Origin: Paracoccus binzhouensis | GTDB lineage: Bacteria > Pseudomonadota > Alphaproteobacteria > Rhodobacterales > Rhodobacteraceae | Reading direction: 5' to 3' | DNA length: 64,000 bases | NCBI RefSeq assembly: GCF_016446475.1 | Contig: NZ_JAEHFP010000005.1 | Location: forward strand, 1 to 64,000 | Shown here: positions 1-60,944 of the stretch, piece after piece | How the letters are laid out: every line of letters starts with the position of its first letter | Numbering within the stretch: the stretch's first letter is position 1 | The notes under the pieces: model-generated | Told to the model about the DNA's origin: nothing | The model's database searches: none | What the model saw: the letters and a program-made list of their open reading frames with translations, nothing else | Translations under genes and position numbers: made by a program

Positions 1-94
1 CCCACATTCTCCAAGTAAGTCGCTGATTTCGCTGTCGTAATCGTGATATTTCGCATATAAATCATGGCGTTGACGGCTGCGAGGGGCGCGTTTC

Positions 95-1450
95 ATGGAT
101 CACCTGGAGGGTGCGGGCTTGGCGCGGGGAGATCGGGTTGATTTCGACCGCCGTGTGCGTCTGGAGTTCCGTGGTGCGCAGATCAGTTCAGACGGTGGCC
201 TGCTGGTGATGCGCGAGCTTGATGACGTGCTCGGCCTGTCCAATCTGGCGTCGGAGGCGCTGCGAGACAGCCGCACCGGGAAGAACACGCTCCATCGGCT
301 TGACGGATTGTTCCGGCAATCGGTGTTCGGACGACTGGCCGGATACGAGGATGTGAACGATGCCGACCGCTTGGCCCTCGATCCCGTGATGCGTCAGGTC
401 GTTGGCGGCAGGGCCGTCGAGGCGCAAGCTGCTTCGGCATCGCAGATGGGACGGTTCGAGACCGAGACGCTGGCTCTGGCCGCGAACCGGGCGGCGCTGG
501 CCGATCTGAACGGCCAATGGATCGACCGGTTTCATGACCGCAACGGGTTGAAATACATCGTGCTGGACATGGACAGCTCGGTCAGCCCCACCCACGGCGA
601 TCAGGAAGGTACTGCCTGGAACGGGCATTTCGACTGCACCTGCTATCACCCCATCTTCTTGTTCAACCAGTTTGGCATGCTGGAGCGCTGCGCCCTGCGT
701 AACGGCAATGTCCACAGCGCCGATGGCTGGCGGGATGTCCTTGATCCCGTCATTGCCCGATATGCTGGCCGCGACCTTGGTGGACGCTTCTTCCGGGCCG
801 ACGCTGCCTACGCGATCCCCGCGATCTATATGCGGCTGGAAGAAGCCAGGTTCTTCTACGCCATCCGTCTGCCCGCCAACGCCGTCTTGCGCGAGAAGAT
901 CGCGCATCGGCTGACACGGCCCGTGGGACGGCCTTCGCTGACCAAGGTCAAACGGTTCTTCGAGGACTTCGAGTATCAGGCGGCGTCCTGGGACAAGCCG
1001 CGCCGCGTCATCGCCAAGATCGAATGGCATCCGGGCGAGCTGTTCCCCAAAGTCGGCTTCATCGTCACCAACCTGCCGATGGAGCCAGACTGGGTGGTGA
1101 GGTTCTACAACCAGCGCGGCACCGCAGAGCAGCACATCAAGGAAGGCAAATATGCCTTTCGCTGGACGCGGCTGTCATGCCGGAAGTTCCGGCACAACGA
1201 GGTGCGGCTGCAACTGCACGCGCTGGCCTACAACCTGGCAACCTTCCTGCGCTGCATCGAACTGCCCGAGGCCATGGCGGACTGGTCGTTGACCAGCCTG
1301 CAACTCAAGCTGATCAAGATCGGCGCCCGCGTCGTCCGCCACGCCCGCGCCATTACCTTCCAGTTGGCCGAGGTCGCCGTCACCGGCCCGATGGTGCGGG
1401 CCGTCCTTGCCGCCATCCGCCGTCTTCGAACGCCTCCGTCATGCGCATGA
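95..1450 (+). CDS. IS1380-family transposase
   Basis: DDE transposase of 451 aa that moves its insertion sequence by cut-and-paste. The family call rests on the N-terminal block with 'SSDGGLL', on the DMDSS motif (D158/D160), on FRADAAYA (D236) and on the [13 protein letters not shown] block (E345), which together supply the DDE acidic residues. The length is normal for IS1380. The start is the ATG at 95; no strong Shine-Dalgarno site is seen. The stop TGA at 1448-1450 lies inside a 62-bp sequence that is tandemly duplicated directly downstream. The terminal inverted repeats could not be identified, and the left end may lie at or just before base 1. It inserted upstream of the aldehyde dehydrogenase and marks the left of the window as rearranged DNA. 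Confidence 0.93.
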
Positions 1451-25827: not shown

Positions 25828-26991
25828 ATGGCATCGAAGATCACCCTGTTCCCGGTCGGTAACGGCGACATGACGCTCATCGAGACCGACTCCGGCCGCA
25901 AGATACTGATTGATCTCAACATTCGGGCTGCCGCCGATGACTCTGACGACGATACGCCGGACGTCGCTAGCATGCTCAGGGAGCGTCTCGAACGGGACGC
26001 TGATGGCAGGCTGTATTTGGACGCGCTGCTTCTCAGCCATCCCGACAAGGATCACTGTACTGGCCTGCGGAAGCATTTCCACCTCGGCCCGCCCGATGAA
26101 TGGTCGAAGAAGGACGATAAGATCTTCATCCGCGAGATGTGGTCGTCGCCGATGGTGTTCCGCCGCGCGTCGCGCAATAACGTGCTGTGCGACGATGCGA
26201 AAGCGTTCAACACCGAGGCCCGGCGCCGCGTTCAGAAGTTCCGTGACGTTGGCGGCATTGTCGGCGACGGTGATCGCATCCTCATCCTTGGAGAGGACGA
26301 AAACGGCAAGACCGACGACCTGACGGCGATTCTCGTGCGCGGGGACGAAACCTTCTCGCGCATCAACGGCCAGTACGACTGGTCGATGACGGCACGGCTT
26401 CTGGCGCCGCTTCCCAAGACCGATGACGACGAGGAAGAAGAGGCGCTGTCCAAGAACCAGTCCAGCACGATCCTCCAGTTTTCTTTGGCTGGCGATCAGG
26501 TCGGGGACAGGTGCCGGTTCCTGACTGGCGGGGATGCGGAAGTCGCCATTTGGGAACGGCTCTGGCAGCGGCACTCCTGGCGGTCGGACTGGCTGTCCTA
26601 CGACATCCTGCAGACGCCTCACCATTGCTCGTGGCACAGCCTGTCGCATGACAGTTGGAGTGAGATGGGCGAGGACGCGGAGGTCTGTGAGGACGCGCGA
26701 AATGCGCTGTCTCAGGCCCGCGACGGTGCGACGATCGTCGCCAGCAGCAAGCCCATCAAAGACGACGATAGCGACCCGCCTTGCATCCGCGCCAAGCGGG
26801 AATACGTGGCCATCGCGGATGGCGTGAATGGCACGTTCAAGTGTGTGGGCGAACACCCTTCGGAGAAATCCCCCGACGTGATGGAGTTCGAGATCGGCAA
26901 GGATGGTCCGCGGCTGAAGACGAAGCTCATGAAGGCGGCGACCGTCCTCAGCTCCGGCGTGATCGGCGGACAGCCCCTGGCTCACGGCTGA
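25828..26991 (+). CDS. metallo-beta-lactamase-fold hydrolase (module C)
   Basis: 387 aa. N-terminal strand pattern FPVGNGDMTLIET and the metal motif SHPDKDH (H71, D75, H76) identify an MBL-fold hydrolase of the ComEC/Rec2-like cytosolic type; later blocks FLTGGDAE and TPHHCSWHS supply further ligands. It has no signal peptide. Its substrate is unknown, but association of such MBL proteins with E2-E1-JAB fusions is a known gene-neighbourhood theme in bacterial ubiquitin-like systems. The ATG at 25828 is preceded by a perfect AGGAGG (25817-25822). It is the first gene of a three-gene operon; the next start follows after 5 bp. Confidence 0.8.
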   Translation: MASKITLFPVGNGDMTLIETDSGRKILIDLNIRAAADDSDDDTPDVASMLRERLERDADGRLYLDALLLSHPDKDHCTGLRKHFHLGPPDEWSKKDDKIFIREMWSSPMVFRRASRNNVLCDDAKAFNTEARRRVQKFRDVGGIVGDGDRILILGEDENGKTDDLTAILVRGDETFSRINGQYDWSMTARLLAPLPKTDDDEEEEALSKNQSSTILQFSLAGDQVGDRCRFLTGGDAEVAIWERLWQRHSWRSDWLSYDILQTPHHCSWHSLSHDSWSEMGEDAEVCEDARNALSQARDGATIVASSKPIKDDDSDPPCIRAKREYVAIADGVNGTFKCVGEHPSEKSPDVMEFEIGKDGPRLKTKLMKAATVLSSGVIGGQPLAHG

Positions 26992-26996
26992 AACCG

Positions 26997-29288
26997 ATGG
27001 CGGACATCCGACTCAGCGACACCATCCTGCGCGCGCTGGCTCTGGTGTCCGCCCATCCCGCCGTTTTCCATGTCGGCACGCCATCTCTCGTGGATGGGGG
27101 CGGCACGGTGGTCGTGGATGTGACGTTCGACGTCAACCTGCCGAACAGCTGGCGGCGGGCAGGGGAAAGCCCATCAGGGGTGAAGCTCCAAGAGGTTGTG
27201 CGCATAGCCTTTCCGTGTGGATTCCCGCTTGAGGCGCCAGAGGTTTCGCTGCGCCGGGACTTCAACCGCAACCTCCCGCATATGCAGCCATGGTTGACCG
27301 ATGGACGCCCCGTGCCCTGCCTCTACGATGGCGACTTGGCTGAGCTGCTCCACCACGAAGGCCTGGCCGGTATCCTCAATCAGACGGCCGTCTGGCTGGA
27401 GCGCGCGGCGCTGGGTACGCTCATCGATCCGAAGCAAGGCTGGGAGCCCGTTCGGCGCGATAGCTTTGCGGACGATCTCGTCGCCGACGCCGAAGGGCTC
27501 CGGCGGCTGGTTGACCGTAAGGGTGGTTACCGCTTCTTTGAGCTGGACTATTTGAGGATGGAGGCCAATGGCTCCAGCGTCATCCACGGTCACATCTCGG
27601 GTGTCAGCCCCAAACTGAACACTGACGCCGTCCCGAGGCTATTCGGGGAAACGCCAACGGCGGCAAATACGTTGCGCCGAGGCCGTTCGCTGGGTCTTGT
27701 AGTCTGGCCGGGAAAACTGCCGTCGGGCAAGCTGGCCATTAGCGATGTATACCTGCCCGAGACGGTTACTACGGTCGCGGAACTGAAGCAACGTGCGGAG
27801 CTATACGGGTGCGCCCGCGAACTCGATACCGCGCTCAATTGGCTGAAGAGATGCTTGTCAGGTTATACCGGCGGGCCATTCCCGCTGGCTGTCGTTCTGT
27901 TGGCGCGCCGCCCGTGCAACGTGATCGGCAGTCAAAGTCCAATCGAACTGTGTCCCTATGTCGTGGACATTCGGTCGCCCAATCTATTTGCCGAGGGCGA
28001 GGCAACGCCAACACGGCCTGCCGCGCATCGTCACGCCGTGAGCCGTGCCCTTCTGGCTCAGATGGCCGGTGGCGCAGCGACCTCCGAGCGTCCGCCGTGG
28101 ACCCTGATCGGGGCTGGCAGTTTAGGCTCCAAGCTGGCGCTTCATCTCGCACGGGCCGGAAATGGACCTGAGGTCGTCATCGACAAGTCGTCGATGGCTC
28201 CCCACAACGCTGCAAGGCACGCCCTCATTCCCACCACAGGAGACATGCAAATCCTTTGGATGGATGCCAAGGCCAGACTGTTGTGCGATGCGTTGAAAGG
28301 CCTCCAACAAGAGGCGGTATCTGTGGTCGCCAACGTGGCAAGCATCCTCAGTTCCAGGGAGCAGGTGCGCCGGGCTTGGTCAAAGCGGTCCTGGGCGGTC
28401 GTGAATGCCACGGCATCACTGGTTGTGCGCGACGCACTGGCCTCCAGCAATCTGCTTCCAACTCGCGTGGTCGAGACCTCTTTGTTCGCGGGCGGGCTTA
28501 TCGGAATCATCACCGCAGAAGGACCAGGACGAAACCCAAACACGGGCGACTTGATGGCAGAAAGCTATGCCCTCCTCCATGAGGACCTGGCGGCGGCAGG
28601 TGCCGTTTTCGGAGACAATGCCGCGGCGTCGCGGCAAACGTTAGGCCAGGGCTGCGGCTCCATGACAATGGCAATGTCCGATGGGCGGCTTTCGCTTTTC
28701 GCGGCTGGCATGTCCGAGTATTTACTGCGGCGACAGCGCGAGGGGCTACCGGAGAATGGTGGCGAGGTCCTCATAGGACGGCTCTCCGACGACGGGCTCG
28801 GTCTCGTGTGGCATGTTCATCTCGTTTCACCCGTTGCCGAAGTCAGCACGACCAATGGAGAAGCATGGCGCGTTCACGTCCATCCGCGTGCACTGGCGAA
28901 GATCCAGGAAGAGACAGCGCGTTGGCCGACGTCGGAAACCGGGGGCGTACTCGTCGGCCGGGTTTCAGAAGCGTCCCACACGTTCCACGTCGTTGACGTC
29001 CTGGACGCGCCTGAAGATAGCCATCGCTCGCCGAACGAGTTTGTGCTCGGAACGAAGGGTCTGCGCCAGAAGCTGACATCGTACTCCGAAGGGGTGGGTT
29101 GGTCACTCTTTTGCCTTGGAACCTGGCACAGTCATCTTTCAGCGAGTGGCCCATCTCTGACAGATCGTGCGACCGCAACAGCTGTCTCAATCGCACGTCT
29201 GACGCCGGCCGTTCTTCTCATCCACACACCGACCGGATTCCATGCGCTTCTCGCCGATTCTGCGGGCGTGGCCAAGGGAGGCGCATGA
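26997..29288 (+). CDS. E2-E1-JAB triple fusion: ubiquitin-like conjugating and deconjugating enzyme (module C)
   Basis: 763 aa with three domains in order. An E2-like conjugating domain (about 1-150) has candidate catalytic C108 in PVPCLYDG. An E1/ThiF-type adenylating domain (about 365-610) has nucleotide loop GAGSLGS at 372-378 and candidate catalytic C553 in QGCGSM. A JAB/JAMM isopeptidase domain (about 625-763) has E647 in ETGG, H711/H713 in WHSH, S720 and D723; the HxH-to-S spacing is one residue shorter than canonical. In CBASS, separate Cap2 (E1-E2) and Cap3 (JAB) attach and remove the C-terminus of the CD-NTase; here all are in one chain and no CD-NTase is near. The ATG at 26997 is 5 bp after the MBL stop, with a weak ribosome site. 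Confidence 0.85.
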   Translation: MADIRLSDTILRALALVSAHPAVFHVGTPSLVDGGGTVVVDVTFDVNLPNSWRRAGESPSGVKLQEVVRIAFPCGFPLEAPEVSLRRDFNRNLPHMQPWLTDGRPVPCLYDGDLAELLHHEGLAGILNQTAVWLERAALGTLIDPKQGWEPVRRDSFADDLVADAEGLRRLVDRKGGYRFFELDYLRMEANGSSVIHGHISGVSPKLNTDAVPRLFGETPTAANTLRRGRSLGLVVWPGKLPSGKLAISDVYLPETVTTVAELKQRAELYGCARELDTALNWLKRCLSGYTGGPFPLAVVLLARRPCNVIGSQSPIELCPYVVDIRSPNLFAEGEATPTRPAAHRHAVSRALLAQMAGGAATSERPPWTLIGAGSLGSKLALHLARAGNGPEVVIDKSSMAPHNAARHALIPTTGDMQILWMDAKARLLCDALKGLQQEAVSVVANVASILSSREQVRRAWSKRSWAVVNATASLVVRDALASSNLLPTRVVETSLFAGGLIGIITAEGPGRNPNTGDLMAESYALLHEDLAAAGAVFGDNAAASRQTLGQGCGSMTMAMSDGRLSLFAAGMSEYLLRRQREGLPENGGEVLIGRLSDDGLGLVWHVHLVSPVAEVSTTNGEAWRVHVHPRALAKIQEETARWPTSETGGVLVGRVSEASHTFHVVDVLDAPEDSHRSPNEFVLGTKGLRQKLTSYSEGVGWSLFCLGTWHSHLSASGPSLTDRATATAVSIARLTPAVLLIHTPTGFHALLADSAGVAKGGA

Positions 29289-30047
29289 ATGTTCAACCTC
29301 GAAACGCTCATCAGCGATCCCTACAACCGTAAAGCCCGGCTTCAACCTGCGCTCCTCACGCTGTTACCCATATTGGTTGCATCGGTGTTGCTGGTCCCGG
29401 AAATTCAGTCGTCTTGGGGTGCTGCTGTCGGCGTGGTGGTGTATTGCGGCGGTGCGATGTGGCTGACTCAGCTTGGCAGAGATCGTGGCAAAGCGCTTGA
29501 GCCGATGCTTTTCAAAGCGTGGGACGGTAAGCCTTCCGTCGCGATGCTGCGACATCGTGACTCCTACCTCTCGAAGGCGACCAGAGAGCGGTATCGTGCG
29601 TTCCTCGAACGTCGAGTTCCGGACCTGAAGCTCGCGTCGCCGGAGGAGGAGGAGAGTTCACCGACCAACGCCGATGATGGGTATGAGAGTGCTACTGCTT
29701 GGCTGCTCGCTCAAACCAGGGATCGCGAGCGCTTTCGCCTGATCTTCGAGGAAAACATCAATTACGGGTTCCGCCGGAATATCTGGGCACTCAAGCCTCT
29801 GGCGCTTGTTGTAGATGGACTACTCATTACGGTCGTACTGACGACGGTCGTGATCTTTTCAACGGAAAGCGTCACCTCAACTTTGCAGGTGATCGACAAG
29901 CCGACTTGGGCCGCTGCTTTGTTTACTCTGGCCCACATGTTGGTCTTCGCAGTCATGGTGCGTCGCGACTGGGTGCGCGCGACAGCGAACGCCTACTCAC
30001 AGCAACTCTTAGCCGCATGTGACATCCTTGATAGTAGCGATCGCTGA
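29289..30047 (+). CDS. four-helix membrane protein, candidate effector (module C)
   Basis: 252 aa. Two hydrophobic segments at about 21-39 and 42-58, a charged cytosolic stretch with an acidic run (PEEEESS), then two more at about 170-192 and 205-224. No sequence family is recognised, though the size and paired-helix layout resemble SLATT/S-4TM-type pore-forming effectors of nucleotide-signalling defence systems. The ATG follows directly on the stop of the E2-E1-JAB gene, indicating translational coupling and a joint function. A likely model is that it is the target or effector controlled by conjugation; this is inference from position and topology. Confidence 0.65.
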   Translation: MFNLETLISDPYNRKARLQPALLTLLPILVASVLLVPEIQSSWGAAVGVVVYCGGAMWLTQLGRDRGKALEPMLFKAWDGKPSVAMLRHRDSYLSKATRERYRAFLERRVPDLKLASPEEEESSPTNADDGYESATAWLLAQTRDRERFRLIFEENINYGFRRNIWALKPLALVVDGLLITVVLTTVVIFSTESVTSTLQVIDKPTWAAALFTLAHMLVFAVMVRRDWVRATANAYSQQLLAACDILDSSDR

Positions 30048-30231: not shown

Positions 30232-30504
30232 TTATCCGTCCCGCGCCGCATCGAGCAGATGCCGGTAGCCGTGCTCGGTCATCCAACGGGCGCGCTTCAG
30301 ATGCGTCTCCCAGCAGCGGCGAGCGCGGTGAGGCTCCGCGTCCGGATCGCGATGCAGGACGATGCCGGCGACCTCGCGCCAGTCGGCGCCTTCAGCCTCA
30401 GCGTCGAGCAGGCGCAGATAGGTGATGAAATGGTCCTCATCATAGGACGTGGTTTTGTCCGCCCACGGCACCTCGTCGGCGATCTCGGGATCGAGTTTGG
30501 CCAT
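30232..30504 (-). CDS. DUF2285 protein, QseM-like antiactivator of ICE transfer
   Basis: 90 aa from the ATG at 30504, preceded by GGAGG with good spacing. The sequence (SYDEDHFITYLRLLDAEAEGADWREVA, RRCWETHLKRARWMTEHGYR) is a stand-alone DUF2285 domain, a helix-turn-helix variant. In Mesorhizobium ICEs the small DUF2285 protein QseM binds the activators FseA and TraR and keeps the element silent in most cells. An FseA-like gene lies 1.4 kb away in opposite orientation, which supports the same role. The quorum-sensing partners (TraR, QseC) are not in the window, so the regulatory input here is unknown. Confidence 0.75.
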   Translation of the reverse strand: MAKLDPEIADEVPWADKTTSYDEDHFITYLRLLDAEAEGADWREVAGIVLHRDPDAEPHRARRCWETHLKRARWMTEHGYRHLLDAARDG

Positions 30505-30643
30505 GTGCCCGTCCTCCAAACCTTGCACATCCATGGCATCCGTTCGGGCTGCCTCCGGGCTTCGGGTGCGAGGCGCTGCTCGATCCATCATAATACGGAA
30601 TGGCGCCGGAGGCCTGCGGGCATATGTCGATCAATGTCTCCGG

Positions 30644-31525
30644 TCAGGCGCAATTCTTGCGGAACAGAGAAGGCGTCGTCCCCGTCATCTTGCGGAACAC
30701 GTCCGTGAAATGGCTGTGGCTGGAAAAGCGGAGAGCGAGCGCGATGTCCGTGATCGACGCGCGGTCCGACAGCAGCATCTCCTTCGCCTTCTGAATCCGC
30801 CGCTCGGTGATGTAGCGGCAGGGCGGCTTTCCAAACGTCGCCTTGAACGCCTTGCCGAAATGGTGTGGGCTGAGTCCCGCTTCCGCGGCGAGCGCTGCGA
30901 GCCCGATATCTTCGTCCAGATGCGCCTCGATGAAGTCGATGATCCGCCTTCGGCGCGAGGCGCCGAGACCGCCCCTGATCGATGGCGGCGGCCTACCGTT
31001 TTCGCCATAGGTCTCGAACAAGCGCAGAGCGAGCGAGGTGCCGACGAGGTCCAGGCAGAGCCCGCCGCAGCGGCTATCGTCGATCAAGCTGCGCCTGAGG
31101 CAGGCTATCAGCTCCTCGACCGCCGGGTCGCGGAGCGCCGCTCTACCTCTGATCTCGGGCACGCGCCCGTCGAAGGCGTTGCCGATTGTGCGTTCGATGA
31201 AGCTATTTTCCATGGCAATGACGAAGGACTGCTTGTCGGCCGTCCAGCCGACATGAGTGGCCCGATCGGCCGGGCTCAGATGAAAGTGTCCTGCAGCAAC
31301 AGGGTATTTCTCGGTGCGGCGGCTTTCAGGCAAACGGCAGATGAGATCCAGCGGTTCGCTTTCATGCATGAAAAGGGCGAACTGTGCCGTGACGATCTGT
31401 GTCCCGGGATTGATCGGGATATCGCATCGGCTAACGACAATGCCGTTGCGGGCGATGCGCCGCGTGACGGACAGTACCGGGGACGCAATTTCCGACGTGA
31501 AATCGACCAGAGTGGTTTCGGCCAT
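30644..31525 (-). CDS. AraC/XylS-family transcription regulator
   Basis: 293 aa. The N-terminal half is an AraC-binding-like cupin region (about 20-180); the C-terminal 100 residues hold two helix-turn-helix units (IGLAALAAEAGLSPHHFGKAFKATFG and SITDIALALRFSSHSHFTDVFRKMTG), the AraC signature. It likely binds a small molecule and activates neighbouring genes. The start at 31525 is the first ATG of the frame. It lies between the QseM-like and FseA-like genes, which is not a place where I know an AraC regulator in related ICEs, so it may be an extra control on excision or an unrelated passenger. Confidence 0.88.
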   Translation of the reverse strand: MAETTLVDFTSEIASPVLSVTRRIARNGIVVSRCDIPINPGTQIVTAQFALFMHESEPLDLICRLPESRRTEKYPVAAGHFHLSPADRATHVGWTADKQSFVIAMENSFIERTIGNAFDGRVPEIRGRAALRDPAVEELIACLRRSLIDDSRCGGLCLDLVGTSLALRLFETYGENGRPPPSIRGGLGASRRRRIIDFIEAHLDEDIGLAALAAEAGLSPHHFGKAFKATFGKPPCRYITERRIQKAKEMLLSDRASITDIALALRFSSHSHFTDVFRKMTGTTPSLFRKNCA

Positions 31526-31957
31526 GACGCAATCTCCATCGCCTGAAAATTGATATCTCGGCCGATAGCAGGTTGCCGGCCTTTAACAAGTTCCATTCCC
31601 GGTAGAGTGTGTGTTTCAAAATAGATGATCCTGTGACAACTTTGTGATGAGGGCGGCGCAACTGTGGCAATCTCCAGTTTCGGTTTCTCTGCCCGAATTC
31701 ATTTGTACTTTAATAAAATTCTGTAGTTTGCAGGTCTGGCGTTGCGAATATTGTAACGATTTCCTGAAAGACGCCGCGAAAACACGGAAGCCAACCCGTG
31801 TCTCAACTATCGATAGTAATCGATGTCGTCGGCGCCCTCCCGCCAGTGACATCGACCTGGCAGGAGGCGGCTTGTCCCAGGTGCTGAGCGACAGATCGTC
31901 AAATGGCCGCGCCGCGTCCGCTACGGCCGGGTGGCCTCATGGGAGGAGACAAGCCCC
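31526..31957. other. intergenic control region upstream of fseA-like gene
   Basis: 432 bp between divergent AraC and FseA-like genes, with no supported ORF. The stretch 31620-31790 is locally AT-rich compared with its surroundings and probably contains both promoters. A palindrome CTATCGATAG lies at 31807-31816 and its half TCGAT recurs just after. The ribosome site GGGAGGAG at 31941-31948 serves the ATG at 31958. Confidence 0.4.
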
Positions 31958-32816
31958 ATGTCCAAGGAGAAGACCGTCCCCGGCATAAGTCCGCGCGCCG
32001 ACTGGCGCGATCCCGAAAGTTACAAACCCCTCATCGACCTGGACCGGGCCGGTTGGGCCTGGGAGTGGCTCAAGCGCAATCCCGACTTCGCCACGGCTGC
32101 CGGTGGGCTGCCACAGGTGTCGCCTCCACTCCGTCCGTCCGCCACCGAGCCCCGGCTGAAGGCCGCTCAGCCCCGAATCCTCCGTATCCAGAATCCGGGG
32201 CCGTTCGAACACTGGGGCGTCTTCTTTCACCACTGGCGTTGCCCTACCGGCTACGGACGTCTTTTGGCTGCCCGATCTCAATCCATCGGTGCTCGTCGTG
32301 GAAGCGCAGCCCATTGCACCCGGCCACACCGACGCCTTCGACATCCGATGCTTTGCGTCACTGGCGACTGTGTTGTGCTGCGGCGGATCCGAGCACGTGC
32401 TTTTCAGCGATGGCTTTCGCCATCTCCAACTGATGGTGACGGCAGGCAGTGTTCTCGATGGCCCGGTGTGCTTCCGCTACCTGCTGTCGGGTCTCCGGCA
32501 CACGGAGGCGAAGGTTCCGGCGCTGCAACGGCTGTGCGGGCTTTGCCGCCTCGGCCGTCTGCCGCGCGGCCTCTTTCCGCCGGAGCGCCGGGCCAAGCGC
32601 TGGGCGATGATGCTGCGCGCCTGGGACGGAGAAATGGCGGGCGCAAGCCGGCGGCAGGTGGCGGCGGCGATCTTCGGGGAGACGGCGGCGCACGAGCTCT
32701 GGGAGTCCGGTTACCGCTCCCGCATGCAGCGGCTTGTCCGCGAGGCCGAGGAGATGATCAGCGGCGGCTACCTGAGACTTCTGGGGCGGGCGGCAGAGGG
32801 AAAGGGAGGCTTCTGA
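31958..32816 (+). CDS. fseA: FseA-like ICE excision activator, joined by a +1 frameshift (DUF6499 + DUF2285)
   Basis: The first frame (from the ATG at 31958, strong GGGAGGAG) encodes a DUF6499 domain: RADWRDPESYKPL, DRAGWAWEWLKRNPDF. At 32225 the meaningful sequence moves to the +1 frame and continues TTGVALPATDVFWLPDLNPSV, then a DUF2285 domain to the stop at 32816 (RAKRWAMMLRAWDG, RQVAAAIFGE, SRMQRLVREAEEMI). Read through the shift the protein has 285 aa. FseA of ICEMlSym(R7A) is made the same way from two overlapping frames by programmed +1 ribosomal frameshifting and activates the excisionase gene rdfS. Without frameshifting the first frame continues for about 300 codons of unrelated arginine-rich sequence. 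A mutation or sequencing error remains possible. Confidence 0.78.
32222..32231 (+). promoter_or_regulatory. putative +1 ribosomal frameshift site (UUC UUU CAC)
   Basis: In the zero frame the codons are TTC TTT CAC. A tRNA-Phe on TTT (32225-32227) can slip forward one base to TTC (32226-32228), after which ACC ACT GGC is read in the frame that carries the DUF2285 homology. The homology break falls exactly here. No obvious stimulatory stem-loop or zero-frame stop codon was identified. Confidence 0.6.
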
Positions 32817-32880
32817 CGGATGAAGGGCTGAAGCCGGCAAGAGAGAGCCGGCCCGCCCGCAACCCGTGAGGAGACCTCCC

Positions 32881-33402
32881 ATGTTCCAGTTCGTCCGCCT
32901 GTCCGCCGTCATCGGCATTGTATTTTTCGCCTGTCTGTCCTTCTGGCCCGCGCTCGACGAGGAGCATTCCGGCCCGGCCAATGTGATCGACGCCGATACA
33001 ATCGAAGTGGGCGGCGAGAAGCATCGCCTCTACGGCGTCGATGCCGTGGAGATCGACCAGCGCTGCCGCCGTCGCGACAGCGCGGAATGGCCTTGCGGCA
33101 GAGAGGCCGCCGCCGCGCTCGCCAAATTTCTCAAAGGCCGGAAGGTCAATTGCGAGGTCTGGCAGGGAACGACGCGCGATGCCCATGGCCGCTTCGTATC
33201 TGTTTGCTATGCCGGTGGCGACGACATCAGTAGCTGGGTGGCGAAGAACGGCTGGGCCGTCGCCAATCGCGACGCCAATCGCCTCTACAACTACACAAGC
33301 GACGAGGGCACGGCCCGGTTTCTGCGCCGCGGCATCTGGGACGGAACCTTCGATCCGCCCGCCGAATGGCGGCGCCGGCAGCAGGCGGGAGGGCAGCCAT
33401 GA
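32881..33402 (+). CDS. SNase-like (thermonuclease-fold) protein
   Basis: 173 aa. One N-terminal hydrophobic segment (about 5-22) is a signal peptide or anchor, so the product is probably periplasmic. The nuclease fold is shown by VIDADTIEV, HRLYGVDAVE and DAHGRFVSVCY, followed by WVAKNGWAV. Staphylococcal-nuclease-type enzymes cleave DNA and RNA with Ca2+; in conjugative elements similar proteins may process DNA during transfer or entry. The ATG at 32881 follows a GAGG motif. The stop overlaps the next ATG (ATGA). The catalytic glutamate and arginines appear present (VDAVEIDQRC). Confidence 0.82.
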   Translation: MFQFVRLSAVIGIVFFACLSFWPALDEEHSGPANVIDADTIEVGGEKHRLYGVDAVEIDQRCRRRDSAEWPCGREAAAALAKFLKGRKVNCEVWQGTTRDAHGRFVSVCYAGGDDISSWVAKNGWAVANRDANRLYNYTSDEGTARFLRRGIWDGTFDPPAEWRRRQQAGGQP

Positions 33403-52237: not shown

Positions 52238-53077
52238 CTAAGCGCTGCCAAGCATGCCTGTCGCCAGGAGTGTTCCGAGAAGTCCCGCCAAAATCAGGCG
52301 GTAGAGAACGAACGGCAGAAGGGTCGCCCGCCGGAGCCACGCCATCAACCCTGCTATTGCGGCAAGCGCGCTGAAGAACGCCAGCACACCTGCGACAAGC
52401 GCATCCGTCTGTATCGCCGCGCTGCCGGACTGGACGAGGTCGGCGCCACCGAGAACGCCCGCGGCTGCTGTCGTCGGGATGGACAGAAGCAGGGAGAAGC
52501 GCGCGGCCTCGGGCCGCCGCTGGCCGAGAAAGAGCGCCGCAGTCATGGTGATTCCGGACCGGCTGACACCGGGAACCAGGGCGAGCGCTTGCGCCAGGCC
52601 GATAATCATCGCGTCGCGCCAGCTAAGATTCGCGACCGTCCCCCGGGCCTTGGCTGCGCGCCGGTCGGCCAGCCACAGGACAATCCCGAACACGAGCGTC
52701 GTCACGGTGATGAGTGCCGGGCTGCGCCAGTCATTGGCGATGTGATCCTTGAGCAGCAAGCCGGCAATGACGACCGGCACCGTCGCCGCAACAATCTGGA
52801 GGCTGAGCCGGGCGTGGTCCGTCATGCGTCCGCGCAGTGCGTCGATACCGCCGGTCACCAGCCGCGCCGTATCGCGCCGGAAGTAGAGCATCACAGCGAA
52901 GAGCGTGCCGATATGCATCGCCACATCGATAGCGAGCCCCTGGTCGTCCCAGCCCGTCAGCGCTGGAACCAGAATCAGATGGGCCGAGGAGCTGATCGGC
53001 AGAAACTCGGTTATGCCCTGGACGATCGCGAGAACGACCAGATGAAAGAGCGGATTGCCCGTCGCCTCCTCCGCCAT
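52238..53077 (-). CDS. uppP: undecaprenyl-diphosphatase (BacA type)
   Basis: 279 aa integral membrane protein. GITEFLPISSSAH at residues 21-33 and PGVSRSG in the second half are the catalytic signatures of BacA-type UppP, which recycles the lipid carrier of peptidoglycan and gives bacitracin resistance. The ATG at 53077 overlaps the stop of the exchanger gene (TGATG), and the codon-usage is like the neighbouring cargo. As an extra copy on an ICE, it may reinforce the envelope in the recipient. Confidence 0.92.
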   Translation of the reverse strand: MAEEATGNPLFHLVVLAIVQGITEFLPISSSAHLILVPALTGWDDQGLAIDVAMHIGTLFAVMLYFRRDTARLVTGGIDALRGRMTDHARLSLQIVAATVPVVIAGLLLKDHIANDWRSPALITVTTLVFGIVLWLADRRAAKARGTVANLSWRDAMIIGLAQALALVPGVSRSGITMTAALFLGQRRPEAARFSLLLSIPTTAAAGVLGGADLVQSGSAAIQTDALVAGVLAFFSALAAIAGLMAWLRRATLLPFVLYRLILAGLLGTLLATGMLGSA

Positions 53078-54042
53078 CACGACCCCATCCCGTTCCTGAA
53101 CAGGAAGATCATGTATGCGGCATAGACGGCGAGCATGCCGATGCCCCAGAGGCGGCCGATACGTTGCGTTGCGAACAAGAGCACGAGCAACGCGCAGCTC
53201 GCGCCGAGCATGACCGGCGTGTCGATATCGCGGAACCGGGCGCCGACTTCGATCGGCTGGATGACCGCGGTCGTTCCGAGAATGGCGAGGACATTGAAGA
53301 TATTGCTGCCGATGACGTTGCCGAGCACGACATCGGAATGCCGCCGGACCGCCGCCACGATGGCCGTCGCCAGTTCGGGTAGCGAGGTGCCGACGGCGAC
53401 CAGCGAAAGGCCGATCACCGCATCGGGGACGCCGAACGCGCGCGCGATCGAGATCGACCCGTCCACCAGAAGATCGGCGCCAATCACGAGAAGGGCAATT
53501 CCGCCCAAGGAGACGAGCGGCGGCAGCCATGCGCGCTTGAGCGGCACATCCTCGAATTCCTCGGTCTCCTGTTCGAAGACCGTCAGCGTCTTCTCCCGCC
53601 GCTCCAGCCAGTAGCTGGCGAGCAGGTAGACGGTCAGGACGGCCAGCAGGGCGAAGCCTTCCACCCGGGTGATGACCTGTCCCTGAACCAGCCCGAACAG
53701 CGCCAGCGCCACGAGACTGGCAACCAATGCTTCCCGCACCGCCGTGCGCTTCCATCCTGAAATGGGCATGATCAGCGCCGCCACGCCGAGGATCAAGAAC
53801 ACATTGGCGATGTTGCTGCCGACGACATTGCCGAGTGCGATCTCGGGCGATCCGCCCAGCGCCGCATTGACCGAGACCAGGAGTTCGGGCGTCGAAGTTC
53901 CGAACCCGACGATCACGAGTCCGATTATGAGCTTGGACAGCCCGAACCGCTCGGCGAGCGCGACACTGCCACGAACCAGCCCCTCTCCACCGAGAAACAG
54001 CAGCACGAGGCCCGCCGCCGCCAAACCGAAATCCGTCACCAT
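53077..54042 (-). CDS. Ca2+/cation antiporter (CaCA superfamily)
   Basis: 321 aa with about ten hydrophobic segments in two homologous halves. Each half has an alpha repeat: GFGTSTPELLVSV plus GNVVGSNIANVF in the first, and AVGTSLPELATAI plus GNVIGSNIFNVL in the second. This is the YrbG/CaxA-like sodium(proton)-calcium exchanger of the inner membrane. It is coupled to uppP. The ATG at 54042 follows after a 22-bp gap from the CorA-like gene. The ion specificity cannot be assigned. Confidence 0.92.
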   Translation of the reverse strand: MVTDFGLAAAGLVLLFLGGEGLVRGSVALAERFGLSKLIIGLVIVGFGTSTPELLVSVNAALGGSPEIALGNVVGSNIANVFLILGVAALIMPISGWKRTAVREALVASLVALALFGLVQGQVITRVEGFALLAVLTVYLLASYWLERREKTLTVFEQETEEFEDVPLKRAWLPPLVSLGGIALLVIGADLLVDGSISIARAFGVPDAVIGLSLVAVGTSLPELATAIVAAVRRHSDVVLGNVIGSNIFNVLAILGTTAVIQPIEVGARFRDIDTPVMLGASCALLVLLFATQRIGRLWGIGMLAVYAAYMIFLFRNGMGS

Positions 54043-54064
54043 TCTATCGTATTTCCTTGCAGGT

Positions 54065-55036
54065 TCAGAGCCAGCCGCGGCGCTTGAAATAGACGTAGGG
54101 GAGTATCGCCGAGAGCACCATGAGCCCGAGCGCCATCGGATAGCCGTAGACCTCGTCGAGCTCGGGCATGAATTGGAAATTCATGCCGTAGATCGAGGCG
54201 ATGAGCGTCGGCGGCAGGAACACGACGGCGGCGACCGAGAAGATCTTGATGATCGCGTTCTGCTCGATGTTGATCATGCCGAGCGTCGCATCGAGCAGAA
54301 AGGTGATCTTCTGTGAGAGGAAGCTCGCATGGTCCGCCAGCGAGCGCACGTCGCGGGCGAGCGTCTTGATGCGCTCGCGCACATCCTTGCCGCTCTTGCG
54401 CTGCATCGCTCCCTGGCCCAGGAAGCCGACCAGCCGCTCGAGCGTCACGAGGCTGTCGCGGATGTTGGATGTCAAGTCGCCTTTGCGGCCGATGGTTTCG
54501 AGGACCTTCTGAAAATCCTGGCTCTTGGTCGGCTTGGCTCCCTTGTGCTGGAACACGTCCCGCGAAATGCCGTCGATGTCGCGCCCCGCCCGTTCCAGGA
54601 TATCGGCAAGCCTGTCGACGATGGCCTCAAGCAGGGCGATGAGCACGCCTTCGCCCGTCTCGCACCCCATCGGCACCTTTTCGGCGCGCATGGGAAAGGT
54701 CTTGAAGGCACGGGGCTCGTGATAGCGGATGGTAACTAGCCGGTTGCCCGTGAGAACGAAAGTCACCGCCTGCATCTGCGGATCGTCGCCATCCGCCTGC
54801 GCGGGCAGGGTGGCCGTCATGAAAGAGGCTCCGTCCTCGTTGTAGAGGCGCGACGATATCTCGATCTCCTCCATCTCCTCCCTTGTCGGGATATCGATTC
54901 CGAGCCGCTTCTCGAGATCGTCTTCCTCGGCGTCCGAGGGGTTGACGAGATCGATCCAGACCATGCTTTCGGGAAGCTCCGATGTTCCCTCGACCGCTCT
55001 CAAGCGGCCGCCCTCATTCAAGAATCCGCGGATCAT
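54065..55036 (-). CDS. CorA-like Mg2+/divalent-cation transporter
   Basis: 323 aa. The N-terminal alpha/beta cytosolic funnel and long helix are followed by two C-terminal membrane segments with the YGMNF selectivity motif (about 283-287). ZntB-type transporters have GIN or other variants, so Mg2+ or Co2+ uptake is favoured. The start at 55036 is an ATG with GAAAGGAGG upstream. It is the first gene of the three-gene envelope cassette corA-CaCA-uppP. Confidence 0.92.
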   Translation of the reverse strand: MIRGFLNEGGRLRAVEGTSELPESMVWIDLVNPSDAEEDDLEKRLGIDIPTREEMEEIEISSRLYNEDGASFMTATLPAQADGDDPQMQAVTFVLTGNRLVTIRYHEPRAFKTFPMRAEKVPMGCETGEGVLIALLEAIVDRLADILERAGRDIDGISRDVFQHKGAKPTKSQDFQKVLETIGRKGDLTSNIRDSLVTLERLVGFLGQGAMQRKSGKDVRERIKTLARDVRSLADHASFLSQKITFLLDATLGMINIEQNAIIKIFSVAAVVFLPPTLIASIYGMNFQFMPELDEVYGYPMALGLMVLSAILPYVYFKRRGWL

Positions 55037-56021: not shown

Positions 56022-56942
56022 ATGATTGAAGTGGAGTCGCTGACACGCGTCTACGGCAGCCTTACGGCTGTCGACAACGTCAGCTTCTCGATCGGAAAGG
56101 GAGAGGTCGTCGGCCTGCTCGGCCACAATGGCGCCGGCAAGAGCACGATCATGAAGATGCTCACGGGCTATCTCGAGCCCACCTCGGGGTCGATCCGTGT
56201 CGACAGTCTTCGGATGGGCCACGACACGCGCGCGATCCAGGCGCGCATCGGCTATCTGCCGGAGAACTGTCCCGTCTGGCCCGAAATGACGCCGATAGAC
56301 TATCTCGACTACCAGGCCAGTCTGCACGGCGTTGCCGCCGCCGATCGCGATGCCAAGATCGCGCGCGCCATCCGCCGCGCGCAGCTTGCCGAGAAGGCGA
56401 GGGATCGCATCGAGACGCTCTCGCGCGGCTACCGCCAGCGCGTCGGGGTCGCCCAGGCGATCCTGCACGATCCCGACATCATCATCCTCGACGAGCCGAC
56501 CAACGGTCTCGACCCGACCCAGGTGCGCGAGATGCGGGGCCTGATCCGCGAACTGGCGCAATCCGCAACGGTCATTCTCTCGACCCACATTCTTCAGGAG
56601 GTTCGTGCGGTCTGCGAGCGCGTGCTGATCATGCGCCGAGGCCAGTTGGTGCTCGACGAGAGGATCGACGCGCTGGAAGCCGCCAGTGGGCTGCGGCTCG
56701 CCACGGATCACGATCTGTCGGATCGCCTTTCGCAGCTTGACGGCGTCAAACAGGTGCAGGCTCTCGACAGTGTCGATGGACGGTTCGCCTTCGCGCTGGA
56801 CGCCGGGCACGAAACGGCGCCCGAGATCGCGCGCGCCGTCCTCGATGCAGGCGCCGCGCTTTACGCGCTGGAGCCGCATCGGCGCGACCTCGAGACCGTT
56901 TTTGCCGAACTCAACGAAGGGGAGGCCGCACATGCTGCGTGA
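56022..56942 (+). CDS. ABC transporter ATPase, GldA-like
   Basis: 306 aa. Walker A GHNGAGKST at residues 34-42, signature LSRGYRQRVGVAQAI near 135, Walker B IIILDEPTNGLDP near 155, and a C-terminal extension after about residue 215. The family resembles GldA of gliding-motility operons and other type-2 exporters. The ATG at 56022 has GGGAGG upstream. Its stop overlaps the following start by 11 bp, indicating coupled translation with the permease fusion. Confidence 0.93.
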   Translation: MIEVESLTRVYGSLTAVDNVSFSIGKGEVVGLLGHNGAGKSTIMKMLTGYLEPTSGSIRVDSLRMGHDTRAIQARIGYLPENCPVWPEMTPIDYLDYQASLHGVAAADRDAKIARAIRRAQLAEKARDRIETLSRGYRQRVGVAQAILHDPDIIILDEPTNGLDPTQVREMRGLIRELAQSATVILSTHILQEVRAVCERVLIMRRGQLVLDERIDALEAASGLRLATDHDLSDRLSQLDGVKQVQALDSVDGRFAFALDAGHETAPEIARAVLDAGAALYALEPHRRDLETVFAELNEGEAAHAA

Positions 56943-59862
56943 GATCTCCGCAACCGCCCGCAAGGAGTTCGCGGGCTTTTTCTCGTCCCCTGCCGCCTAC
57001 ATCTTCCTCGGCGGTTTCCTCGCGGCGACGCTGTTCATCACTTTCTGGGTCGAGACGTTCTTCGCGCGCAACATCGCGGATCTGCGGCCGATGTTCAAAT
57101 GGATGCCGGTCCTGATGATCTTCCTTGCGGGCGCGCTCACCATGCGCGCCTGGGCGGAGGAGAGGCGCGCCGGCACGCTTGAAACGCTTCTGACCACGCC
57201 GGCGCGCCCGCTGAGCCTGGTTCTCGGCAAATTCCTCGCAGTCGAGGCGCTGGTCGCGGTCGCGCTCGTGCTGACCCTGCCGCTGACCGTCAGCGTTTCG
57301 ACGATGGGGAACCTCGACTGGGGGCCCGTCGTCGGCGGTTATGTCGCCACACTGTTCCTGGCCGCCGCCTACGTGGCGATCGGCCTGTTCGTCAGCGCCC
57401 AGACCGACAATCCGATCATTGCGCTGATCGTGACGGTCCTGGTGTGCGCGGTGTTCTTCTTCATCGGCTCGGACCTGCTGACGAGCCTGGCCGGACGGGA
57501 CTTCGCCGCCATTCTCGCCGCCATCGGCTCGGGCACGCGCTTCGATTCCATCACGCGCGGCGTGCTCGACCTGCGCGACCTCTACTATTACATCTCGATT
57601 GCAGGCGCGTTTCTCGCCCTCAACGCGTACCAGCTTCACCGCCTCAAATGGGCCGGCAATCCCACCGGCAGCCGGCACGCCCTGTTCTCCGGCGTCGCGG
57701 CGCTGGCGGTGGCGAACCTGCTGATCGCCAATGTCTGGCTTGCCCCGGTCGCACAGGCGCGCGCCGATCTGACACAGGGTGGCCGGTATACGCTGTCCGA
57801 GGCAACGGCAACCGCGCTGTCCGGCCTTGAGGAGCCGCTGCTCATCCGCGGCTATTTTTCGACGCAGACCCATCCGCTGCTCTCGCCGCTGGTGCCCCAG
57901 CTCCGCGATCTCCTGACGGAATACGCGGTTGCCGGCGGCGAGGAGGTCAGGGTTGAATTCGTCAATCCCACCGAGAATCCGGACGCCGAGGAATCGGCCG
58001 CGGAATTCGGCATTCGGCCCACTCCGTTCCAGACGGCCAGCCGCTACAGTTCGTCGGTGGTGAGTTCCTATTTCGACGTTCTGGTCTCCTATGGCGACGA
58101 ATACGAGACGCTGGGCTTCCGCGACCTGATCGAGATCAAGGGTCGGAGCGCGGAAGACATCGATGTCGGGCTCGCCAACCCGGAATACGCGATCACCTCG
58201 GCCATCAGGAAGGTGACGCAGGCCTATCGTTCCGGCGGCGATCCTTTTTCGGCGATTGCCGGCGGGGTGGCGTTCAAGGGCTATGTCTCGCCGGCCGAAG
58301 CGCTGCCGGAAAGCCTGCGCCCGGTACGGGCGGACCTGGTTGCCGCTCTCGAAGAGATCGCAGCGGACAATCCGGACAGCTTCTCCTATTCGCTCGAGGA
58401 TCCTGAGGCCGACGGCGGTGCGCTGGCCGGCCAGCTTCAGGAAGAGTTCGGGCTCGGCCCGCAGCTTGCCGGTCTCTTCGATCCCCAACCCTTCTGGTTC
58501 TCGCTCCGGCTCGAGGGCGACGGGCGCAATGTACCGGTTACCCTGCCTGAAACGGGGGAGCTGGATTCCGCAGCCTTTCGCGAGGCCATCGAGGCGGCGG
58601 CGAAGCGGCTGGCGCCGGGCTTCCTGCGCACGATCGCGCTGGCGACCCCGTCGCCGCAGGCCGCCGCGAACCCGATGATGGGACCGGCAGGCCCCAGCTA
58701 CAGCCAGTTGCGCCAGCGGCTCGGCGAGAACGCACGGGTCGTGAGCGCCGATCTGTCGACCGGACGCGTCCCGCAAGGGACCGATGTGCTGATGGTGCTC
58801 GCTCCCGATGCGCTGGACGAAAAGGCCCGGTTCGCAATCGACCAGTTCCTGATGCGCGGCGGCTCGGTCGTTCTCGCCACTTCGCCCTATCAGGTCGATA
58901 TGACGCGCACGCTGAGCGCCGCATCCCACGAATCCGGCCTGTCGGAGTGGCTGACCGGGTACGGCATAGAAATCGGCGAGAACATGGTGCTCGACCCGCA
59001 GAGCGCGGCGCTGCCGGTTCCAACCGAACGGACGGTTGCCGGAATCCCTCTGCGCGAGGTGCGCATGGTTCCCTACCCATTCTTCCCCGACGTCCGGGAA
59101 GACGGGCTGGCCCAGGATCATCCCGTGACGGCGGCGATGAGCCAACTCACGCTTAACTGGGCCTCGCCGATTACGATCGACGAGGAGGCCGCGGGCGACC
59201 TCTCCATCGCCCGGCTCATCCAGAGCTCGCCGCGAAGCTGGACCGTCGAAAACCCGGACGTCATGCCGGACTACCGGGCTCATCCCGACACCGGCTTCGC
59301 GCCGGGCGAGGAGAGCGAACGCCATACGCTCGCGGTCGCGGCAACGGGCCGGTTCACATCGGCCTTTGCCGGCCAGGACTCGCCGCTCGTCTCCGCACCC
59401 GAAGACACCGGGGACCAGGACGGCGCGGAGGAGCCGGCCGCCAATGCGGAAGGTGCCGATACCGACGCGGAGAGCGAGCCGGCGGCACCGGAGTTCGGCG
59501 GCGTCATCGAAAGCTCGCCCCCAGGCGCCAAGCTGGTGGTCGTGTCGGCTTCGGGCTTCGCTTCGGACCTGATGCTGGATCTGGCGTCGCAGGGGGCGGG
59601 AACGACCTACACCCGGCCGGTGGAGTTCCTGCAGAACGTCGCCGACTGGGCCACCGAGGACCCGGCCCTGCTGGCCCTGCGCGGGGAAACCCAGTTCGCC
59701 AACATGCTCGCGCCGATGTCCGATACGCAGCGGACCATGTGGGAGTATCTGAACTACGGATTTGCCGCACTCGGACTGCTCCTCGTCTGGGGGCTTCGCC
59801 GCATTGCGCGGTCACGCGGCCGCGCACGCTACGATCGCATTCTCAATGAGGTGACGGCATGA
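56932..59862 (+). CDS. fused ABC permease and GldG-like periplasmic protein
   Basis: 976 aa. The N-terminal 245 residues are a GldF-type ABC-2 permease with about six hydrophobic segments (FFSSPAAYIFL..., LLTTPARPLSL). A further transmembrane helix around 262-278 anchors a long periplasmic part containing the ABC_transp_aux/GldG fold (FVNPTENPDAEE, VLMVLAPDALDEKAR, MRGGSVVLATSPYQ), and a C-terminal membrane helix ends the protein. Fusion of GldF and GldG is found in several proteobacterial operons. Together with GldA and DUF4340 it forms an exporter or envelope machine of unknown substrate; no other gliding-motility gene is present. Confidence 0.88.
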   Translation: MLREISATARKEFAGFFSSPAAYIFLGGFLAATLFITFWVETFFARNIADLRPMFKWMPVLMIFLAGALTMRAWAEERRAGTLETLLTTPARPLSLVLGKFLAVEALVAVALVLTLPLTVSVSTMGNLDWGPVVGGYVATLFLAAAYVAIGLFVSAQTDNPIIALIVTVLVCAVFFFIGSDLLTSLAGRDFAAILAAIGSGTRFDSITRGVLDLRDLYYYISIAGAFLALNAYQLHRLKWAGNPTGSRHALFSGVAALAVANLLIANVWLAPVAQARADLTQGGRYTLSEATATALSGLEEPLLIRGYFSTQTHPLLSPLVPQLRDLLTEYAVAGGEEVRVEFVNPTENPDAEESAAEFGIRPTPFQTASRYSSSVVSSYFDVLVSYGDEYETLGFRDLIEIKGRSAEDIDVGLANPEYAITSAIRKVTQAYRSGGDPFSAIAGGVAFKGYVSPAEALPESLRPVRADLVAALEEIAADNPDSFSYSLEDPEADGGALAGQLQEEFGLGPQLAGLFDPQPFWFSLRLEGDGRNVPVTLPETGELDSAAFREAIEAAAKRLAPGFLRTIALATPSPQAAANPMMGPAGPSYSQLRQRLGENARVVSADLSTGRVPQGTDVLMVLAPDALDEKARFAIDQFLMRGGSVVLATSPYQVDMTRTLSAASHESGLSEWLTGYGIEIGENMVLDPQSAALPVPTERTVAGIPLREVRMVPYPFFPDVREDGLAQDHPVTAAMSQLTLNWASPITIDEEAAGDLSIARLIQSSPRSWTVENPDVMPDYRAHPDTGFAPGEESERHTLAVAATGRFTSAFAGQDSPLVSAPEDTGDQDGAEEPAANAEGADTDAESEPAAPEFGGVIESSPPGAKLVVVSASGFASDLMLDLASQGAGTTYTRPVEFLQNVADWATEDPALLALRGETQFANMLAPMSDTQRTMWEYLNYGFAALGLLLVWGLRRIARSRGRARYDRILNEVTA

Positions 59863-60944
59863 GAACGACACTCATCGCACTCTCCGGCCTGTTCGTTGCA
59901 CAGATCGCGCTGGCCGTCTGGTTGAACCTGTCGAGCGGCGGCCTTGCCGGGCAGCCGCCGGGCACCCCTCTGCTGGCCTTCGAGGCCGATGCGGTCGAGC
60001 GCCTGACGATCTCGGATGCGGACGGGCAATCGGTGACCCTGGCGCGCGCTGACGAGGGCTGGCGGTTGCCGGACGCCGGCGATTTTCCGGCCGACACGAC
60101 AAAGGTCGATGGTTTGCTGGCGGATCTGGCGAGCGCGGAGCAGGGAGCGGCGGTCGCGACATCGGATACGGCCGCCGAGCGCTTCCGCGTCTCGGATGAC
60201 GCCTATGAGCGCAAGATCGTGCTCGAGCGTGAGAGCGGCGACCCGGCCACGGTCTATCTGGGCACCTCCCAGGGCACCCGCCAGGTGCATGTGCGACGCG
60301 CGGAGCAGGACGGCGTCCATCGCATCGCTTTTTCCACCTGGCGCGCGCCCGCGGACCGGGCCGACTGGCTCGATAAGACAGCACTCCAGGTCGACCCGGC
60401 TGAAATCGCCTCGCTAAAGTGGAACGGCATCACGCTGGAAAAGGTCGCGTCCGAAAGCAATGGATCGGAGTCTGAAGACCAGGGTGAGACAGATGCGAAC
60501 GCGGCCGGCACGGCGACCTGGCAAGCGACGGGAACGCCTGTCACGGACCCGCCGGCCGATGCGGTGAATGCCCTTACCGACCAGCTTTCCCGGATCCGCA
60601 TCAACGGGCTCGTGCCCGAGGAGGACAGCGACGCCTATCAAACCGCCGCGCTGGCGCTCGACATCGTGCTCGAGGACGGGACAACGCGCACCTACACGCT
60701 CCTGAAAGGCGGCGATGACACGTCTTACGCGGTCAGGAGCTCGACGCTCCCCGGACTGATGACGGTTTCTGCTTCCACCGCCGAGGCGATCGTGGAGGCG
60801 GCCGCCGATCCCGCGCTGACCGGGGCGGAGACGCCGCCTGAGGAATCGAGTCCGGCAGACAGCTCGGAGGCAACCCCGCAGGAGAACGCCTCCGCGGATG
60901 CGGCTCAATCAGCCGATCCATCCGAAGATACTCCACAACAGTGA
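59859..60944 (+). CDS. DUF4340 domain protein
   Basis: 361 aa. Signal anchor at about 5-22, then DUF4340 repeats (LTISDADGQSVTLARADEGWRLPDAGDFPADTTKVDGLLADL). The C-terminal 60 residues are low-complexity, rich in Ala, Ser, Pro, Glu. DUF4340 proteins occur as the third gene after GldA and GldFG in proteobacterial clusters. The ATG at 59859 overlaps the upstream stop (ATGA). Confidence 0.88.
   Translation: MRTTLIALSGLFVAQIALAVWLNLSSGGLAGQPPGTPLLAFEADAVERLTISDADGQSVTLARADEGWRLPDAGDFPADTTKVDGLLADLASAEQGAAVATSDTAAERFRVSDDAYERKIVLERESGDPATVYLGTSQGTRQVHVRRAEQDGVHRIAFSTWRAPADRADWLDKTALQVDPAEIASLKWNGITLEKVASESNGSESEDQGETDANAAGTATWQATGTPVTDPPADAVNALTDQLSRIRINGLVPEEDSDAYQTAALALDIVLEDGTTRTYTLLKGGDDTSYAVRSSTLPGLMTVSASTAEAIVEAAADPALTGAETPPEESSPADSSEATPQENASADAAQSADPSEDTPQQ

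Follow-up and report, generated by a model that had tools for sequence, protein, structure and literature searches.

The FseA activator of the integrative and conjugative element ICEMlSymR7A (Mesorhizobium japonicum, a root-nodule bacterium; genes msi172-msi171) slips at UUU-C; this frameshift was reportedly first described in a paper of 2015, and the element uses an RlxS relaxase. According to PMC10359603, FseA is made in ICEMlSymR7A by a low-frequency +1 frameshift at a site that UGGGGG adjoins, needs an Arg37-Asp210 contact between its two domains, and is bound at DUF6499 by QseM; it also gives 4709 FseA homologues, about 61% of which need a +1 frameshift, names RovC as a regulator of a type VI secretion system, and describes FseA-type genes as often misannotated or unannotated, so such switches are under-counted. 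A look for the term UUU in PMC10359603 gave no match, and the same frameshift system is reviewed in PMC5009743. The locus described here lies in a 64,000-nucleotide stretch of Paracoccus binzhouensis DNA (the window) and resembles its R7A counterpart in the DUF6499 and DUF2285 halves, in the +1 shift after W-G and in the QseM-type gene on the element, which here too has a relaxase of the RlxS family; it differs in a zero frame that stays open for 213 codons past the slip codon, in the residues at the junction (W-G-V-F-F here, W-G-L in the FseA paper), in the AraC gene alongside fseA and in the serine recombinase with which the contig ends. Judged by its letters, the locus pairs an FseA with its QseM and belongs to a kind that has been published: it has a DUF6499 domain with AWEWLKRN (an AWEFLRRN-type motif), a DUF2285 domain, a +1 site after W-G, R40 and D223, and a predicted RovC-like fold. 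The open zero frame and the adjoining AraC-QseM pair are its unusual points; otherwise it is an ordinary family member. We consider it in all probability (about 0.93) a genuine, conserved FseA-type switch gene of a mobile element, laid out in two frames that are probably joined by a one-base ribosomal slip.

The zero-frame half of the gene (31958..32227, plus strand) extends from ATG 31958, which is preceded by the ribosome-binding-site-type sequence GGGAGGAG (31941..31948, plus strand; invariant in all 8 members of the window clade described below), to the slip codon; it contains the AWEWLKRN motif and matches PF20109 with E 1.7e-11, this being what we take to be the present Pfam model for the domain that the FseA paper calls DUF6499. 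The +1-frame half (32229..32816, plus strand, including the stop codon) holds the middle domain and DUF2285 (PF10074, current Pfam name RovC_DNA-bd; E 3e-21). The frames meet at 32213-32230 in TGG GGC GTC TTC TTT CAC, where TGGGGC (32213..32218, plus strand) consists of the conserved W-G codons, resembles a ribosome-binding site and stands just 5′ of the proposed slip site UUU-C (32225..32228, plus strand). The P-site tRNA-Phe would move one base forward here, from UUU to UUC; C 32228 would be skipped and ACC at 32229 would become the first +1 codon. Past the slip codon the zero frame runs on for 213 codons and a stop (32228..32869, plus strand), its stop codon (32867-32869) lying 3′ of the +1 stop (32816). 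The first-pass annotation had placed DUF6499 and DUF2285 in different frames with the switch at TTC TTT CAC, as is borne out by the PF20109 and PF10074 matches and the letters at 32222-32230, and had also seen correctly that the zero frame has no early stop: it reaches 32869 and is likewise open in 8/8 clade members. Transcriptional slippage was considered and set aside, as the site has no long homopolymer.

The slip site was compared across 126 different fseA-type loci, assembled from whole-genome searches, five named records and stretches fetched by place (a convenience sample, no census); 84 have the +1 offset, 39 are single-frame and three (L051, L074 and L125) have offset 2, these three being excluded from the slip counts and the tree. 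At the slip position, four codons after TGG, TTT was found in 81/84 of the +1 loci and TTC in none, and the slip codon is thus retained almost throughout the frameshifted members; elsewhere in those 81 genes, TTT accounts for 153 of 574 Phe codons (Fisher P about 1.5e-41, a nominal value as the sequences are related). The window reading TGG GGC GTC TTC TTT C matches the position of TGG GGG TTG CGA TTT C in other loci, and TGGGG stands 5′ of the slip site at 78 of the 81 located sites. Conservation of UUU-C among homologues, a check put forward in the first-pass annotation, was confirmed with UUU-C at 77/81 located sites and UUU-U at the other 4/81. The three +1 loci without TTT at the usual place are L027, with TTT one codon later, and L081 and L108, with TGT. 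The last two genes, in which TGT replaces the slip TTT and the +1 offset is present, are either decayed or use another slip. The 39 single-frame genes yielded 24 TGGGG sites; TTT lies four codons past one of these, with G as the next base, and TTT-C lies there at none.

A quick tree was calculated for 114 of the 126 loci (offset-2 loci, loci with weak DUF2285 scores and identical proteins were omitted). Well-supported (starred) branches require at least five changes between frameshifted and single-frame genes, and the best tree has ten, so that the benefit of a frameshift could be tested between near relatives, such as the window clade and L028/L056. The window clade of 8 (SH-aLRT 100) lies in a group of 13 (SH-aLRT 97) together with the frameshifted L098 and L105 and the single-frame L028, L056 and L099. 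Single-frame homologues without UUU-C, which the first-pass annotation would have held against a programmed slip, do exist (39/126), but they are interleaved with frameshifted genes on the tree, which points to gain or loss of the site and not to an error. The genome from which the window comes has five different fseA-type loci (L001-L005, on contigs C2, C93, C192, C205 and C216), all with the +1 offset, which suggests several integrative and conjugative elements or remnants of them. Two tandem single-frame fseA-type genes were observed at L205:9792-11227.

The joined product is collinear across the junction with 27 natural single-frame homologues (25-46% identity), and over the 28 rows of the alignment R40 on the zero-frame side and W103, D223 and G228 on the +1 side are invariant. 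R40 and D223 are taken as the counterparts of the Arg37-Asp210 pair of FseA, R40 being equated through the AWEFLRRN motif and D223 through its place in the DUF2285 domain, with no alignment to R7A FseA. AlphaFold2 modelling of the joined product on that alignment gave a mean pLDDT of 87.5 and a pTM of 0.85, with a modelled strand (88-91) spanning the junction. In VIA-align 2, RovC (6xz5) was ranked first (Z 14.4, rmsd 3.0, 198 residues, model 6..275; 19% identity in the structural alignment), and QseM was ranked second on the DUF2285 part with Z 4.4, a value that means little alone. A Foldseek search of the joined model against the PDB returned no significant match (best E 0.68), phmmer gave a weak match between the +1 half and RovC (E 0.038), and neither fseA half nor the QseM-like ORF matched an NCBIfam family at E 0.01. 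The predicted model nevertheless has the RovC/FseA fold, the same as that of Yersinia RovC over the 198 residues at 19% identity.

Two rival accounts of the offset were weighed. A sequencing error, or decay of the gene by a one-base indel, would leave the two parts of a single domain architecture one base out of register, and the source genome is a draft of 270 contigs. The near relatives argue against this: the window clade (n=8) comprises the window, records from Hoeflea, Tistlia, Telmatospirillum, Rhodovibrionaceae and Sphingobium and two further genomes, its other members are 89-99% identical to the window in the DUF2285 half, and all 8, spread over different genera, share the offset down to the base, which is why the offset is not a sequencing error. 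The slip site reads TTCTTTCACCA invariantly in 8/8 clade members, its codon being kept as TTT against codon preference, and mean dN is below mean dS in both halves (0.046 and 0.159 in the DUF6499 half, 0.044 and 0.114 in the DUF2285 half). Error or decay can hence be given next to no weight, and the view of the first-pass annotation that this is probably a conserved regulatory frameshift rather than a defect is supported, neither the offset, nor its position, nor TTT varying within the clade. No further clade member came from viral contigs, in which no relative of the locus was found, from plasmid records, in which the best of 4 had 42% identity, or from another 196 genomes of the class, a set partly shared with earlier draws, which gave no new locus. 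The other account holds that DUF6499 ends in the zero frame and that the DUF2285 part starts internally as a separate protein; a product of the zero frame is expected either way, and internal starts are common. The first ATG, GTG or TTG of the +1 frame is, however, GTG 32289, and a separate second protein is unlikely because this start would cut off W103 (codon 32265-32267) together with middle-domain strands. Moreover, R40 and D223, the presumed counterparts of the contact needed by R7A FseA, sit in different frames and are both invariant, and 39/126 homologues are natural single-frame fusions. Two proteins are accordingly very improbable, if less so than error or decay, and a single protein joined by a +1 slip is the preferred reading.

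A third alternative is dual coding, in which the long zero frame would itself be selected in this clade, either for a second product (DUF6499 with a long Arg-rich tail, e.g. a QseM decoy) or for retaining ribosomes on the mRNA up to the next gene. With the slip codon included, the open zero frame measures 214 codons and passes the +1 stop in 8/8 clade members; 71 other frameshifted genes reach a median of 18 on this count, L086 and L087 alone among them being open to the +1 end and one more exceeding 150 codons (79/84 loci counted, 8 of the clade and 71 others; the rest lacked a located TGGG-TTT or had unreadable codons). Synonymous codon shuffling, which covered 77/84 loci (8 clade, 69 others; the rest left out on the same grounds), predicted 2.8-3.9 stops for each clade gene, with a P of none of 0.007-0.042. 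T precedes GA at 0/122 clade places, against 215/1327 in other frameshifted genes and 76/641 in ten window ORFs, and precedes AA or AG at 0/71, against 44/605 and 13/330, respectively, the 8 clade members not being independent in these counts; by alignment column, T before AA, AG or GA occurs in none of 22 critical columns and in 43/138 other columns of the clade. The overlap has a mean dS of 0.114, below that of the DUF6499 half (0.159) and of the next gene, which encodes an SNase domain (0.196; pairs with L008 left out, as its length differs), and the spacing from the zero-frame stop to the SNase ATG is 11 bases in 8/8 clade members. On the other hand, fully open frames elsewhere are at about chance level (1.2 expected by shuffling in the 69 other genes and 2 seen, L086 and L087), and in these genes too stop-making codon pairs are rarer than predicted, with 252 stops seen against 333.6. 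Retention of the open frame within the clade after an open ancestor gave P 0.011, or 0.039 with the background of other genes and 0.049 by relocation. The clade having been picked partly for its open frame, the P values of these zero-frame tests are too favourable. Clade identity is lower in the zero frame (87.0%) than in the +1 frame (91.0%), zero-frame dN (0.070) exceeds dS (0.050), and the single-frame sisters L028 and L056, which have no zero frame that could be coupled, lie at a similar distance from the SNase gene (48 and 50 bases, from coordinates). Selection on the zero frame is thus borderline (P 0.01-0.05) and may reflect chance; dual coding is possible on these sequence comparisons, yet unlikely.

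Upstream of fseA, an AraC-family regulator gene (30644..31525, minus strand; PF12833, E 4.2e-24) is followed on the same strand, after 52 bases, by a QseM-like lone DUF2285 gene (30232..30591, minus strand; PF10074, E 8.5e-10), whose presumed antiactivator product matches the solved QseM (PDB 7uqt) with E 3.1e-21 over 80 residues; the position of the qseM-like gene behind an AraC gene distinguishes it from QseM itself. The pair is divergent from fseA across an intergenic region (31526..31957) with 93% mean column identity over the 8 clade members, which presumably holds the araC-qseM and fseA promoters. The SNase-domain gene (32881..33402, plus strand; PF00565, E 3.9e-08) lies downstream of fseA, its ATG being the one 11 bases past the zero-frame stop. 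AraC, both fseA halves and SNase have the same order in 7/7 other clade loci (AraC 86-97% identical), and a QseM match was found beyond AraC in 7/7, partial in L007 and L008, the one in L008 lying about 1.2 kb from AraC and being cut by the locus end. A related AraC gene (32-48% identity) is also present near fseA in L163, L164, L186 and L187 and not in L170, L171 and L188. A lone DUF2285 gene was found within about 8 kb in 62/83 frameshifted and 4/31 single-frame loci (Fisher P 3e-9), L083 being a doubtful case among the 62 with two weak, adjoining matches; for loci without such a neighbour within about 1.5 kb, stretches of 16 kb were examined. A link between frameshift and QseM neighbour beyond shared descent was looked for in five independent starred-branch pairs, which had no trend (mean 1.1 the same way, 1.0 opposite), so ancestry can explain the association. 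For some elements, the presence of AraC and QseM-like genes in divergent orientation to fseA suggests a non-quorum-sensing input; no paper that combines QseM and AraC with an integrative and conjugative element came up in a literature search.

In the reading favoured here, the locus encodes a transcriptional activator of the FseA type that belongs to an integrative and conjugative element. The majority of ribosomes would stay in the zero frame, giving DUF6499 followed by an unrelated tail, while a minority would slip +1 on UUU-C, just past the RBS-like TGGGG, and make the full DUF6499-middle-DUF2285 protein. By analogy with R7A FseA, the full-length protein would switch on excision and transfer genes, and by analogy with R7A QseM, the product of the qseM-like neighbour would block the DUF6499 domain by binding to it. 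More speculatively, and with slightly lower odds than dual coding, the unslipped ribosomes of this clade, presumably the majority, might stay in an open frame until 11 bases short of the next gene and yield abundant DUF6499 with a 213-residue Arg-rich tail that titrates QseM and sets the threshold of the switch, with AraC and not quorum sensing as the input.

The contig gives fseA the setting of a conjugative element: it encodes an RlxS relaxase, T4CP and T4SS proteins, and also a ParB-domain protein, a Strawberry-notch-type helicase and a Toprim protein. ICEMlSymR7A has the LuxR-family TraR, whereas no LuxR-type autoinducer-binding domain (PF03472) was found on contig C216, which may not hold the whole element; in the genome this domain is confined to C215 and C230. 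A large serine recombinase at the contig end, running off it (L159:1477-3297), is probably the integrase of the element. At 26781-30047, an ORF with prokaryotic E2, ThiF and JAB domains is followed by a 252-residue ORF; the region looks like defence cargo and is near WYL regulator, restriction-modification and GmrSD genes. Further ORFs at 52238-55036 and 56686-60944 comprise a BacA-domain ORF, a CorA-type transporter and a large ABC-2/DUF7088 ORF with a DUF4340 ORF.
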